DNA of 64,000 nt, taken from NCBI GenBank assembly GCA_023150615.1, contig JAKLKO010000004.1, positions 62,001-126,000 of the forward strand. Reading direction: 5' to 3'. Below are positions 50,092 to 57,189 of this stretch, piece by piece (position 1 is the stretch's first letter; each line of letters starts with the position of its first letter). A program made the translations under genes and the position numbers. Below the pieces are notes generated by a model that did no database searches, was not told the DNA's origin, and was given only the letters and a program-made list of their open reading frames with translations. Source of the stretch: Phycisphaerae bacterium (GTDB lineage Bacteria > Planctomycetota > Phycisphaerae > UBA1845 > UTPLA1).

Positions 50092-50472
50092 GTCTGCCCC
50101 TGTGCTCAATGCCGCTACGGTTCATGGGCATAAGACGGCCGTACACAGAGAAACGGTGTCCGACCGGCTGCGGCGGGCGGGCGCTTCACCCGTAGCCCGC
50201 CGTCGTGAGCAGGCAATCCCGAGACCTGCGACCGGGAATTGCCGCGTTTCCGCCTCGGGCCACGGTATCGCCGAATTGACATCGCCCTGCGAAATGCCGA
50301 TACTGGAATATGCCGACATGGTCCCCGCTGGAAGAATCCGGCCTCGGCAGGCCGGTGGTCACCCCTCAACGGCAGAACATCGCGACGGCCCGACCGCGAC
50401 GGCGGGTCGTCAGGCGGGTGCAGGACGCGGCGGACCGGGCGCGGGGCGGGTTCAGGCAGGAGCGATGGTGCG
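50092..50472. other. Intergenic region with promoter upstream of the BRCT-like gene
   Basis: The stretch contains the strong promoter at 50276-50304. Further on (50305-50472) no gene is supported; frames are arginine/glycine-rich. The leader from promoter to start is about 160 bases, long enough to hold an RNA structure, but none is recognised. Confidence 0.45.
50276..50304 (+). promoter_or_regulatory. Candidate sigma-70-type promoter, strong
   Basis: TTGACA (50276-50281) and GATACT (50299-50304) are separated by exactly 17 bases. The -35 is a full match to consensus. The same hexamers in the context TGCCGATACTG occur at 30094-30123. It likely drives the coiled-coil membrane protein gene at 50473. 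Confidence 0.6.
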
Positions 50473-51960
50473 ATGGCGGGAGCTAAGCCTCAACGGCGTG
50501 GCGGCGGCCTGACGGCAATCCATATCTGGTTGATCGTCTTCGTCGTCCTCTGGGTGGCCTCGACGGGGACGTTGATATTCCTCTTCACGCAGCAGGAGCA
50601 ACTGCGGCAGACCGCCGCGCAGGCCGAGAACGACTTTCGCAAGGTCGCCTCGCGCGCTGATCTCTCGGTCCCGGCGATCGCCGCCTTGTCTCAGCAGGCC
50701 GCGGCCGGCGGCGCGCAGACGACGCTGGTCCGCGTGATGTACGAAGGCATGCGCTCGCTCGCCGGACGTCTAACCGGCAACAAGGACGACGACATCAAGA
50801 CCATCGAGACGCAGTGGAACGCTCTCGTCGACGAGATCGCCTCCGGCGGCAAGGTTCCCGACGCCGAGCAGATCGGCCGCGGGACGGGCGTGATCCCCGG
50901 CGTGCGGCAATTGTACGAGTGGTACGTATCCGAGCGGGATGCCCGACAGGCGGAGGCCGCCGCGCGCGAGCAGGCGACGCGCTCGCTCGCTGAGGCCGAG
51001 GCCCGCACGAAGGCGCTCGAGGCGCAGTTCGGCGACAAGCTCAAGGAACTGGAGAAGAAGGTCGCCGACATCTCCGCCGATCGCGACAAGCTGGCCGAGT
51101 TGAAGCGGCAGGAGGTGGACGACCTCGGGCGGAACATCAACTCAAAGAAAGAAGAACTGGTGGCACTTGCGGCCGCGAACGAAAAGCAGCGCGCCGCCCA
51201 CGAGGCCGCCCTGCGGGACGTGCAGAAGACGCTGCGTGAACAGGCCGACGTGCTTGCGACCTATCGCACGCCCGGCCCGGAAGGCACGAACGAACTCGAC
51301 ACCGCCCGCCAGCCGGTCGGACGCGTCCTGCGGGCGTTGCCCGGCGATTCGCTGGTGCATATCGACGTCGGCCGGCTCGACGGCGTGAACCTCGGCATGC
51401 CGTTCGCGGTCTATTCGTTCAGCAAGCGCGTGCCGGTCGATGGTCGCGGCAAAGCCACCATCGAAGTCGTCAGCGTGGGGCCGCACACGGCGGAGTGCCG
51501 CGTTGTGTCGCCGCCTCCGGCGGACGAGCCGATCCTCGAAGAGGACCTTGTTGGCAACATCCTGCTGACGCGAAACCGGGACCGAAGACCGCGCTTCGTC
51601 GTCGTGGGCGAATTCGACATCGACTACGACGGCGTTGATGACCCGGTGGGCTACGACAAGGTCTCGGCGTTCATCGAGCGCTTCGGCGGCGAGCTGACCG
51701 ACAAGGTCGACGCGACGACCGACTACGTCGTCGTGGGGCGTCGCCCGTCGGCACCGACGGCGCCGACCGGCGCGGATCGCGCCCGTCGCGATCCGACGGC
51801 ACCGACCCGGGCGCGTCGCGCGGCGCGCGACGCGGCGACCTACGACGCAGCGCTGGAGCAGGCGCTGCTTCTGGCCGTGCCGCGACTTCGCCAGGATCAG
51901 TTCTTCAACTTCGTCGGGATGGAGTTGGGTCGCGACGTGGCAGCGCGGCTCTCGCCCTGA
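50473..51960 (+). CDS. Membrane-anchored coiled-coil protein with BRCT-like segment
   Basis: A 495-residue protein. A single membrane helix (about residues 15-38, IHIWLIVFVVLWVASTGTLI) is followed by a long charged coiled-coil region (about 160-285, rich in K, E, A and Q). A beta-rich part with SLVHIDVGRLDGVNLGMPFAVY follows. At about residues 373-428 the text FVVVGEFDIDYDG ... FIERFGGELTDKVDATTDYVVVG follows the BRCT pattern (start strand, conserved GG, and T-D-Y-V-V-x-G end). The family is not recognised. A promoter at 50276-50304 lies upstream. BRCT domains usually bind DNA-repair partners, so a membrane-anchored one is unusual. Confidence 0.7.
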   Translation: MAGAKPQRRGGGLTAIHIWLIVFVVLWVASTGTLIFLFTQQEQLRQTAAQAENDFRKVASRADLSVPAIAALSQQAAAGGAQTTLVRVMYEGMRSLAGRLTGNKDDDIKTIETQWNALVDEIASGGKVPDAEQIGRGTGVIPGVRQLYEWYVSERDARQAEAAAREQATRSLAEAEARTKALEAQFGDKLKELEKKVADISADRDKLAELKRQEVDDLGRNINSKKEELVALAAANEKQRAAHEAALRDVQKTLREQADVLATYRTPGPEGTNELDTARQPVGRVLRALPGDSLVHIDVGRLDGVNLGMPFAVYSFSKRVPVDGRGKATIEVVSVGPHTAECRVVSPPPADEPILEEDLVGNILLTRNRDRRPRFVVVGEFDIDYDGVDDPVGYDKVSAFIERFGGELTDKVDATTDYVVVGRRPSAPTAPTGADRARRDPTAPTRARRAARDAATYDAALEQALLLAVPRLRQDQFFNFVGMELGRDVAARLSP

Positions 51961-53893: not shown

Positions 53894-53901
53894 ATTCAGT
53901 G

Positions 53902-53915
53902 ATAAAACGTTTTAT
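53902..53915. promoter_or_regulatory. Perfect 14-bp LacI-type operator (ATAAAACGTTTTAT)
   Basis: ATAAAACGTTTTAT is a perfect palindrome with the central CG step typical of LacI/GalR-family operators. It lies right after the -10 element and about 17 bases before the ATG of the GH15-type gene, so a bound repressor would block transcription. Sugar-responsive LacI-type control of a starch- or maltodextrin-cleaving enzyme is a common arrangement, but no regulator gene is in the window. Confidence 0.6.
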
Positions 53916-53931
53916 TTCGGGTGGGCGAAAG

Positions 53932-56900
53932 ATGAAAACTGAAGCGCGGCACGTCGTCGGGTCGGCCCTGCTGATCGTGCTTGCGTGCGTGGCCATCGCG
54001 CGGGCCGCACCGACCTCGGTCGAGCACATTCCGGCCGCGCCGGCCTACGACGAGCCACCGGACACGACGCAGCGCGAGCCAGAGATTCCGCGCGAGGATG
54101 ACGCGGTCACGATCTATTTCCGCGTCTCATTCCAATTCACGTACGACCGCGTCGCGGTCTATTTCACCACCGATGGTTCGGAACCGAACGGCCTGTTCGG
54201 CGTCGGAAGCGGAACGACGCAGGTGCACTCGACGTTTAACGGACTGGTGACGTTTGTGCGCAACGAAAGCACGATGGAGGGCGTGCGCGACTGGTGGAAG
54301 ACGACGCTGCCGATTTCGGCGCGCGTGTTCGGCCAGACGATTCGATACAAGCTCGGCGCGTGGAGCACCGGCGGCGGCGGGGAGATTCAGGCGAACGGTG
54401 GCAACCCCTACGCGTACACCAATAAGCTCGCGTGGCCCGGCGCGGGGGCCGGGGCACCGAATCCGCAGGAGGGCTACCCGTCGGTCTACTTCTGGAAAGA
54501 AGAGGCGCTGATCGGCAACCAGTACATCAACGTGATGCTGGACCAGAACGGCACCGTGTTCGACATGTTCTATCCCGGGGCGGGCGCGCACTACGGCGTC
54601 GGCACGCGAAACGAGGGCTACGCGGGCGGAAATGACACGTTTCCGGCGTTCACGTCCGGCCGCGGCCAGATGCACGTCAATCAGCTCATGTGCGGCATCC
54701 GCGTCGACGGCCTGACACACTGGCTGAACAACCCGAACGCCGTCAGCTTCGATCAGATCACGCAGAGCTACACGGCCAATTCCAATACGGTGCAGACCTC
54801 GGCGCGGTTGTTCGCGGGCGGCAACGACATCCTCGTGCAGCAGTACGACTTCTGTCCGGCCGGGATTGAGTTTCCGCTGACGCTCGACAACGTTTCGAAC
54901 CGCGGCATCTACATCAAGCGGTTCATCCTGACGAACCAGAGCGCGGTCGCGAAGACGGTCAATTTCTACGCCTACGGCGACTTCGCGATCAACGGCGGCG
55001 ACGGCTCGGACGCGATGTATCAGGACACCGGCGCAGCGCACGGGGCGATGATCGCGTACGACAACGCGGGCGGCTCGGCGAACAGTCGCGGCGAGTACAA
55101 CCCGACGTTTTTCGCCGACTACGCGAAGGAGGTCTCGATCTTCTTCGGCGCCGCGCTGAAGCGCTGCAACGCGGTCGGTTCGGCCGCGGGAACGCCGGCC
55201 ACGGATTCGTGGCGCGACACGAGCGCCGACAACGGGCAGGGCTGGATCGGCCTTCAGGTGACGCTGCCGCCGGGGACGCCGGTCGAGATCGACCTGGCGG
55301 TCGCGGGCGGGTTCACGCCGGACGATCTGGACGGGCAGGTCGGCGATCGACAGGTCCGGCCGGTCTTCGACTGGTTCTTCGCTCAGTCGATGGCGGGCGT
55401 TCAAAGCGCGACGGACGCATACTGGCAGGCGTGGCTGTCGAACGGCGTGACGGTGGACCTGCCGGACGACCGCTTCGACGAGGTGTTCGTCCGCGGTTTG
55501 CTCGCGACGGCGCTGCACGTGGACGGCGAGCATGGTGCGCTCGTCGCCGGGTATCACAACGGGGCGTATCCGTTCTGCTGGCCGCGGGACGCGGTCTACG
55601 GCGCGGTCTGCCTGGCGCGAACGGGGCATCTTGCCGAGGCGGCCGGCGTCTATGCGTGGATGCGCGACACGTGCTACCGCGATCCGGAGCCGTGGGGACG
55701 GGGGTTCTGGAAGCAGAAGTACACGACGAACGGCTACACGATCTGGTCGGCGCCGCAGATCGACGAGACGGCCGTGTTTCCGTGGGGCGTGTACTACCAG
55801 TTCCTGGTCACCGGCGACGCCTCGTGGCTCAGTTCGCATTACGCGACGGTCAAGGAGGCCGCGATCACGATGAGCAGCAGCCCGAGCGATCCCGGACTGC
55901 TGCCGTTTCTGAACTACAACGCCACCGAGCGCCTGATGTGGAGCAACAACGTCTGGGAGGACAGTTACGGGTTCTTCATCTACTCGAACGCGAACGTCGT
56001 TCGCGGCCTGCGCGATGCCGCGAGCATTGCGACGCAGCTCGGAAACGGCGCGGACGCGGCGGACTTCACGAACCGTGCCAACACGATCCAGTCGGGTCTC
56101 GACGACGCGCTCAATGCGAACGCCGAGATCACCGACATCTCGCAGCTCGGCATCGTCTATCCGTTTCAAGTCTACTCGCCGGTCGACGCGAAGGCCGTCC
56201 GCTACATCGACCGCGTCAACGGCGTGCATCCGGACACGAGCGGGATGAATCACCCGCTGGTGAACTTCACGAACCGTTATGGCTGGCTCGATCTCATCAA
56301 TCGCTATCACGGGGACGGATACTGGGGCAACGGGAGCGCGGCATCGCCGTGGGGCGCCGGTCCGTGGTTTCTGAGCACGCTCTGGTACGGGCTCTACTAC
56401 GCCGAGCGCCAGGATCATACGCCCGGCCGGGGCGACATCGACAACCATCGCTATCGCGTCGAGCGGCTGCTGGACCATCTCGGTCCGGTCGGGCTGGGCG
56501 CGGAGCAGATCGCGCCGCACTGCGCTGATAACTGTCCCGCGCCGGATTGTCCGAATTGCGGCAGCCTGCTCTACGCGGGCCAGCCGGACTTCACGTTGCA
56601 GACGGCCTGGCCGAACGCGTGGGAGAGCATGTCGACGTTCGTCGATGCGGTGATGGCGTTTCTGGATTTCCGCCCCGATGCAACCACCGATCGCATCCTC
56701 ATCTCGCCGAAGCATCCGACGGGCTGGTCGACGATGACGTTCTCGCGGCTGCCGATGCGCGATCGGCGCGTGAGCGTGACGTGCCAGGACACGCCGACGT
56801 ACATCCGCAACGCGTTCACGAACGAGGTCGGCGGCACGGTCAATGTCTCGACCACGATGCGGATTCCGGTCGGCAGGACGGTGTTTGGCGCGACGCGCGA

Positions 56901-57189
56901 CGGCGTTCTGATTTCCATCGCGTCGAGCAACCCGGCCGTTGGAGCGTATGAGCTGACCGGGGCACTCAACGGCGGGGTGGCGGCGGTGACGGACTTCCGG
57001 CTGTACTACGGAATCCCCGGCGACATCGAGGGCGACGGAACGGTCGATCCGGACGACCTGCCATCGTTCGTGGCGGTGCTGCTGGGGTTGGACACCGATC
57101 CGATCCACGTCGCGATCTTCAACATGAACGGCGTCGGCGGTACGGACGGCGCGGACATGCAGCCGTTCGTCGAGGCGATGCTGCCGTAG
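53932..57189 (+). CDS. Secreted GH15-type glucoamylase-like enzyme with dockerin-like C terminus
   Basis: A 1085-residue secreted protein. A signal peptide ends near IARAAP (about residue 25). An N-terminal beta-sandwich region (to about residue 500) precedes the (alpha/alpha)6 catalytic domain. That domain shows YPFCWPRDAVYGA (W550-D553), APQIDETAVFPWGVYYQ, NNVWEDSYGFF with the likely acid E676, and VGLGAEQIAPH with the likely base E858, consistent with glucan 1,4-alpha-glucosidases. The C terminus (about 1030-1085) has two EF-hand-like dockerin repeats, GDIEGDGTVDPDDL and MNGVGGTDGADMQ. ATG 53932 is preferred over GTG 53899. An operator-like palindrome precedes it. Confidence 0.87.
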   Translation: MKTEARHVVGSALLIVLACVAIARAAPTSVEHIPAAPAYDEPPDTTQREPEIPREDDAVTIYFRVSFQFTYDRVAVYFTTDGSEPNGLFGVGSGTTQVHSTFNGLVTFVRNESTMEGVRDWWKTTLPISARVFGQTIRYKLGAWSTGGGGEIQANGGNPYAYTNKLAWPGAGAGAPNPQEGYPSVYFWKEEALIGNQYINVMLDQNGTVFDMFYPGAGAHYGVGTRNEGYAGGNDTFPAFTSGRGQMHVNQLMCGIRVDGLTHWLNNPNAVSFDQITQSYTANSNTVQTSARLFAGGNDILVQQYDFCPAGIEFPLTLDNVSNRGIYIKRFILTNQSAVAKTVNFYAYGDFAINGGDGSDAMYQDTGAAHGAMIAYDNAGGSANSRGEYNPTFFADYAKEVSIFFGAALKRCNAVGSAAGTPATDSWRDTSADNGQGWIGLQVTLPPGTPVEIDLAVAGGFTPDDLDGQVGDRQVRPVFDWFFAQSMAGVQSATDAYWQAWLSNGVTVDLPDDRFDEVFVRGLLATALHVDGEHGALVAGYHNGAYPFCWPRDAVYGAVCLARTGHLAEAAGVYAWMRDTCYRDPEPWGRGFWKQKYTTNGYTIWSAPQIDETAVFPWGVYYQFLVTGDASWLSSHYATVKEAAITMSSSPSDPGLLPFLNYNATERLMWSNNVWEDSYGFFIYSNANVVRGLRDAASIATQLGNGADAADFTNRANTIQSGLDDALNANAEITDISQLGIVYPFQVYSPVDAKAVRYIDRVNGVHPDTSGMNHPLVNFTNRYGWLDLINRYHGDGYWGNGSAASPWGAGPWFLSTLWYGLYYAERQDHTPGRGDIDNHRYRVERLLDHLGPVGLGAEQIAPHCADNCPAPDCPNCGSLLYAGQPDFTLQTAWPNAWESMSTFVDAVMAFLDFRPDATTDRILISPKHPTGWSTMTFSRLPMRDRRVSVTCQDTPTYIRNAFTNEVGGTVNVSTTMRIPVGRTVFGATRDGVLISIASSNPAVGAYELTGALNGGVAAVTDFRLYYGIPGDIEGDGTVDPDDLPSFVAVLLGLDTDPIHVAIFNMNGVGGTDGADMQPFVEAMLP

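Follow-up and report, generated by a model that had tools for sequence, protein, structure and literature searches.

The locus and the layout of its product

The DNA analysed here (hereafter "the window") is a stretch of 64,000 nucleotides, which carries on its forward strand a gene for a protein of 495 amino acids, whose start (MAG...) is common to its relatives in the alignment (Table 1). The gene is flanked upstream by an ABC-type permease on the same strand and downstream by mnmE on the opposite strand (both according to Pfam), and it looks like a single transcription unit. The initial annotation had credited it with a strong promoter and good expression; a sigma-70-type pattern does lie ~170 bases 5' of the gene and scores 10/12 (one match seen vs. 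0.3 expected from shuffled sequences), but a match to a pattern is not proof of expression. Further along the window (53899-57189, + strand) lies a large ORF whose start is export-like and whose end has dockerin-like repeats (GDIEGDGTVDPDDL...).

Table 1. Features of the gene and of the encoded protein, in window coordinates
Feature	Position	Strand	Basis
Whole gene, 495 aa plus stop	50473..51960	+	ORF, ATG start
Promoter-like match, sigma-70 type, TTGACA-N17-GATACT	50276..50304	+	Consensus match only
Shine-Dalgarno-like AGGAG, 10 nt 5' of ATG	50458..50462	+	Sequence
Single transmembrane helix, residues ~16-38	50518..50586	+	Hydropathy; AF2 helix 15-58
Long coiled-coil helix, residues ~140-264	50890..51264	+	AF2 full-length model; coiled-coil-type Pfam matches
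FlgT_C-like beta domain, residues ~282-370	51316..51582	+	Pfam in members; VIA-align
BRCT domain, residues ~373-482, beta1-alpha1-beta2-beta3-alpha2-beta4-alpha3	51589..51918	+	Profile, AF2 model, alignments
Inserted calcium-type loop DIDYDGVDD, residues 382-390, beta1-alpha1	51616..51642	+	Alignment with LigA BRCT; counts
Flexible linker beta3-alpha2, residues 426-442	51748..51798	+	Alignment; low pLDDT

The protein begins with a short tail, which is followed by one membrane helix, a long coiled coil and an FlgT_C-like beta domain, and it ends in a BRCT domain. The tail (residues 1-15) is positively charged (K5, R8, R9), and hydropathy analysis of the 495 residues revealed no second hydrophobic helix at the level of the one that follows the tail, as expected from the single membrane anchor proposed in the initial annotation. 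The long coiled coil and the beta-rich part behind it, also proposed there, were both recovered by AlphaFold2 (AF2), the former as a continuous helix of 125 residues; the models were built with 12 sequences and have a mean pLDDT of 75.7 (C-terminal part) and 70.8 (full length).

The beta domain resembles the C-terminal domain of FlgT, a protein of the Vibrio flagellar basal body, in its fold and, weakly, in its sequence. Pfam FlgT_C was matched at E<=1 in 11 of 28 members (best 4e-4), and the domain in the AF2 model was aligned by VIA-align with FlgT in 8z5n (Z 9.2) and in 3w1e (Z 8.8), although F1-ATPase barrels align with it nearly as well (Z ~8.7). In the one relative with a score shown, the cut-off of FlgT_C (PF16538) was not reached (14.2 against the 27 bits demanded), and the window protein has no listed match; we therefore speak of likeness and not of membership. 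The other FlgT domains are missing from the family; FlgT, for its part, is not known to possess a membrane anchor, a coiled coil or a BRCT domain. MreC, which appears among the weaker Foldseek matches, shares with the family the succession of a short cytoplasmic tail, one helix, a coiled coil and a beta domain, but has no BRCT. A Pfam scan of the window protein detected no match to the MreC domain (PF04085), and the possibility of an MreC orthologue was rejected, as a separate true MreC is encoded elsewhere in the same genome.

The BRCT domain, its loop and its pocket

The initial annotation had drawn attention to a BRCT-like segment in the C-terminal part (FVVVGEF...GGEL...TDYVVVG). For the single sequence the resemblance is weak (E 0.03, under the Pfam BRCT cut-off), and among the close members Pfam BRCT is matched at E<=1 in 14 of 28; for the family as a whole it is clear. 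The family profile compared with the PDB retrieves the BRCT domains of DNA ligase (1l7b, E 4.4e-6) and RFC1 (2ebu, E 8.5e-5), while the strongest support comes from the deep members, which score over the Pfam cut-off by themselves (L093, 3.9e-10 and 3.8e-7; L094, 1.8e-18; L095, 3.3e-7), with two BRCT domains in the protein of L094. These deep members share the anchor, the coiled coil and the beta domain with the window protein. They are also found when the BRCT domain of the LigA protein from the window's own genome is used as the phmmer query (down to 2.8e-17), and the entire family can be aligned with this LigA domain column for column. Structure prediction, which had been named beforehand as the test that could overturn the assignment, yielded a core with pLDDT ~80 and with strands and helices in the BRCT order. 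The AF2 model superimposes on the BRCT domains of LigA (9a6z_B; Z 8.9, with an rmsd of 1.9 for 76 residues) and RFC1 (7u1a_A; Z 8.8), values just moderately higher than the usual background of 7-8, and the sequence evidence therefore carries weight. Judged by profiles and model together, the C-terminal domain is a genuine BRCT fold. It does cover the region first assigned to it (residues 360-440) but is longer, with alpha2, beta4 and alpha3 reaching ~482.

The BRCT domains of LigA and RFC1, which are the best matches of the family in both sequence and structure, have in common with it the fold, the order of strands, the Gly-Gly turn between alpha1 and beta2 (G in 77/83 and 79/83 members), the T-D-[FY]-[LV]-[VI]-x-G strand and the C-terminal helix. 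Unlike in LigA, the domain sits on a membrane-anchored coiled coil, bears an inserted loop after beta1, does not conserve the Thr, Arg and Lys of the pocket, and has a long linker ahead of alpha2, which in some relatives accommodates a long acidic insertion. To our knowledge, all other BRCT domains reside in the cytosol or the nucleus. In the f1 family (L064-L072, L102, L103) most members carry between beta3 and alpha2 an Asp/Glu-rich low-complexity insertion, which is long and variable in length and which neither the window protein nor its closest relative possesses.

The phosphoserine pocket of BRCT domains is defined in a review by a Ser/Thr-Gly pair after beta1 and a Thr/Ser-x-Lys motif at the start of alpha2 (PMC10386641). 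The residues that bind phosphate or phosphopeptide were looked for in 83 members and are not conserved: Ser or Thr precedes the conserved Gly in only nine (the window protein has Val), and the positions of the LigA lysines are variable. The Gly itself and the Gly-Gly turn are kept, and thus the fold has been retained and the known ligand site has not. A BRCT domain that binds phosphate or 5'-phosphate DNA was accordingly rejected. Deep members possess a Lys near the position of the LigA Arg ("NKED", "YSKE").

In most members the connection from beta1 to alpha1 contains extra residues relative to LigA and the deep members. A Dx[DN]x[DN]G motif occurs in this loop in 55 of the 83 aligned members, in all 55 together with an acidic residue at +9 (43) or +12 (12), while in shuffled proteins the motif was encountered anywhere in the sequence in 1.2%; it is absent in the alignment from the LigA BRCT and from the deep members. 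The window loop conforms to the linear Dx[DN]xDG motif and has an additional acid, and in part of the long-loop members the motif is incomplete (e.g. FDLDHDRTID, FDLDQIGQLS), so calcium would not be universally required. According to PMC3123361, known Dx[DN]xDG motifs show a strong bias towards proteins that are secreted or located in the periplasm or at the surface, and an extra acid at +9 or +12 is the pattern of real calcium loops. The beta1-alpha1 loop thus has the sequence pattern of a putative calcium-binding-type loop. The likeness to calcium-blade and EF-hand loops lies in the DxDxDGxxD of the window protein and the EF-hand-like DxDxDGxxxxxE of some relatives; the difference lies in the structural context, as a position after beta1 and before alpha1 in a BRCT domain is not one of those described in the consulted passages of that source. 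Loop length clusters on the tree of the neighbouring beta domain, a tree based on few columns and containing some long branches (three changes vs. 10.5 after shuffling; 0 of 500 as low), and the insertion may have had a single origin. As most members have gained the calcium-type loop, an envelope role is now suggested for the BRCT domain, and since the deep members without the loop have a more ordinary BRCT, the ancestral role may have differed.

Distribution and genomic neighbourhood

The initial annotation had suspected a planctomycete-like cell and advised a search for homologues within Planctomycetota. The 11 relatives with names all belong to the planctomycetes (some of them to Phycisphaerae/Phycisphaerales), which places the window's assembly in Planctomycetota, and the family proved near-universal in the phylum, with members in 97 of 101 close relatives (protein search) and in 334 of 392 genomes across Planctomycetota (profile search).

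The gene is placed head-to-head with polA in 15 order-level relatives and in 24 of the 78 polA-positive genomes of the phylum (39 in total, counted by hand from the coordinates listed), with ~0.1-0.5 kb between the two genes in the loci read. The pairing spans at least 10 family-level groups and is therefore old; it is absent from the window's genome, where polA is on another contig, and from many others. The divergent neighbour may reflect shared control or mere joint inheritance. The loci with the gene divergent from polA include L086-L088 and L109, and in several loci coaE and rho come after polA; in L100 and L101 coaE adjoins the gene and polA is missing there. In six loci of the class (L079-L084) a homologue of lipid A acyltransferase (lpxL-like), its identity established by Pfam in one of the six, lies on the same strand as the gene, 31-186 bp downstream of it. 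In five of these six a response regulator is found ~1.2-1.4 kb downstream, also on the same strand.

Side of the membrane and possible role

The N-terminal flank of the membrane helix is more positive than the C-terminal flank in 47 of 57 members, and the reverse is true in four. This bias is modest (mean net charge +1.2 on the N side vs. -0.3 on the C side), and if only Lys and Arg are counted, the C side has the higher number (2.65 vs. 1.46 on the N side). The content of cysteine, used as a test of compartment, gave no discrimination.

The initial annotation had suggested that the protein could tether DNA or a repair partner to the membrane, a proposal that our results do not support. The calcium-type loop occupies the site of the pocket, whose Ser/Thr-Gly and Lys are not conserved, and the charge bias and the company of the other domains point to the extracytoplasmic side; together with the calcium motif, the FlgT-like domain and the lpxL-like gene, the charges favour an envelope-facing, protein-binding role over a DNA tether. 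We propose that the N-terminal helix would anchor the protein in the inner membrane with its short tail in the cytoplasm, while the coiled coil would form an oligomeric rod extending into the periplasm and presenting the FlgT_C-like and BRCT-derived domains. The BRCT domain would make no use of a phosphate pocket; with its beta1-alpha1 loop converted to a calcium-binding type (DxDxDGxxD in the window protein), it might act as a calcium-stabilised protein-binding head. The whole could be a scaffold or tether that links the membrane to another component of the envelope in the manner of MreC or FlgT. In our view this solution, a scaffold that faces the envelope and carries a calcium-type BRCT head, is the most likely one, with about an even chance of being correct, and it ranks ahead of a tether that faces the cytoplasm. 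The broader scenario, in which a BRCT domain left DNA metabolism, was exported on an MreC-like rod, had its pocket replaced by a calcium loop and became an envelope scaffold in nearly all Planctomycetota, is put forward tentatively, with somewhat less than an even chance.

If the protein instead faced the cytoplasm, its coiled coil and BRCT domain would tie DNA or a partner from repair or replication, e.g. Pol I or ligase, to the membrane. The usual cytosolic location of BRCT domains is consistent with this, as are the closest matches, LigA and RFC1 (both from DNA metabolism), the tandem BRCT domains of one relative and the Lys that deep members keep near the LigA Arg position; the head-to-head polA also weakly maintains a link to DNA metabolism, and possibly to DNA synthesis. 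We nevertheless consider this tether rather unlikely, given the unconserved Ser/Thr and Lys of the phosphate pocket, the loop at its site, the N-in charge bias and the FlgT_C-like domain, and given that a divergent neighbour does not constitute an operon and that polA is unlinked in the window's genome. An envelope scaffold could also do without calcium, with the Dx[DN]xDG loop as a metal-free acidic surface loop and the BRCT domain as a plain protein-binding module. The incomplete motifs of some long-loop members would agree with such a loop, but all 55 complete motifs have the acid at +9 or +12 as in real calcium loops (PMC3123361), and we regard this variant as unlikely. A chance resemblance of an unrelated alpha/beta domain to BRCT, to which the sub-threshold Pfam score of the window sequence alone might point, was rejected in view of the family profile, the structure model and the relatives over the cut-off, and is highly improbable.

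Planctomycetes have an unusual envelope, in many cases divide without FtsZ and possess many conserved proteins to which no role has been assigned, and the relations between their chromosome and membrane are debated. Within the open-licence literature on BRCT domains in Planctomycetes/Planctomycetota, or on BRCT together with EF-hand and periplasm, we found no description of this family. A near-universal membrane protein with a domain combination unreported in that literature is thus a candidate for genetics in cultured planctomycetes. Were the BRCT domain to lie outside the cytoplasm and to bind calcium, it would clearly exemplify the re-use of a DNA-repair fold at the surface of the cell; were it to face the cytoplasm, DNA synthesis would have a membrane-bound partner in this protein.

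As for copy number, several lineages (L093-L096, L099) carry two adjacent copies of the gene. Two copies and polA are also present in one assembly (G015; C31 and C62, corresponding to L064 and L069), in which one of the copies is apparently the same protein as that of G002, perhaps as a result of a mixed bin.
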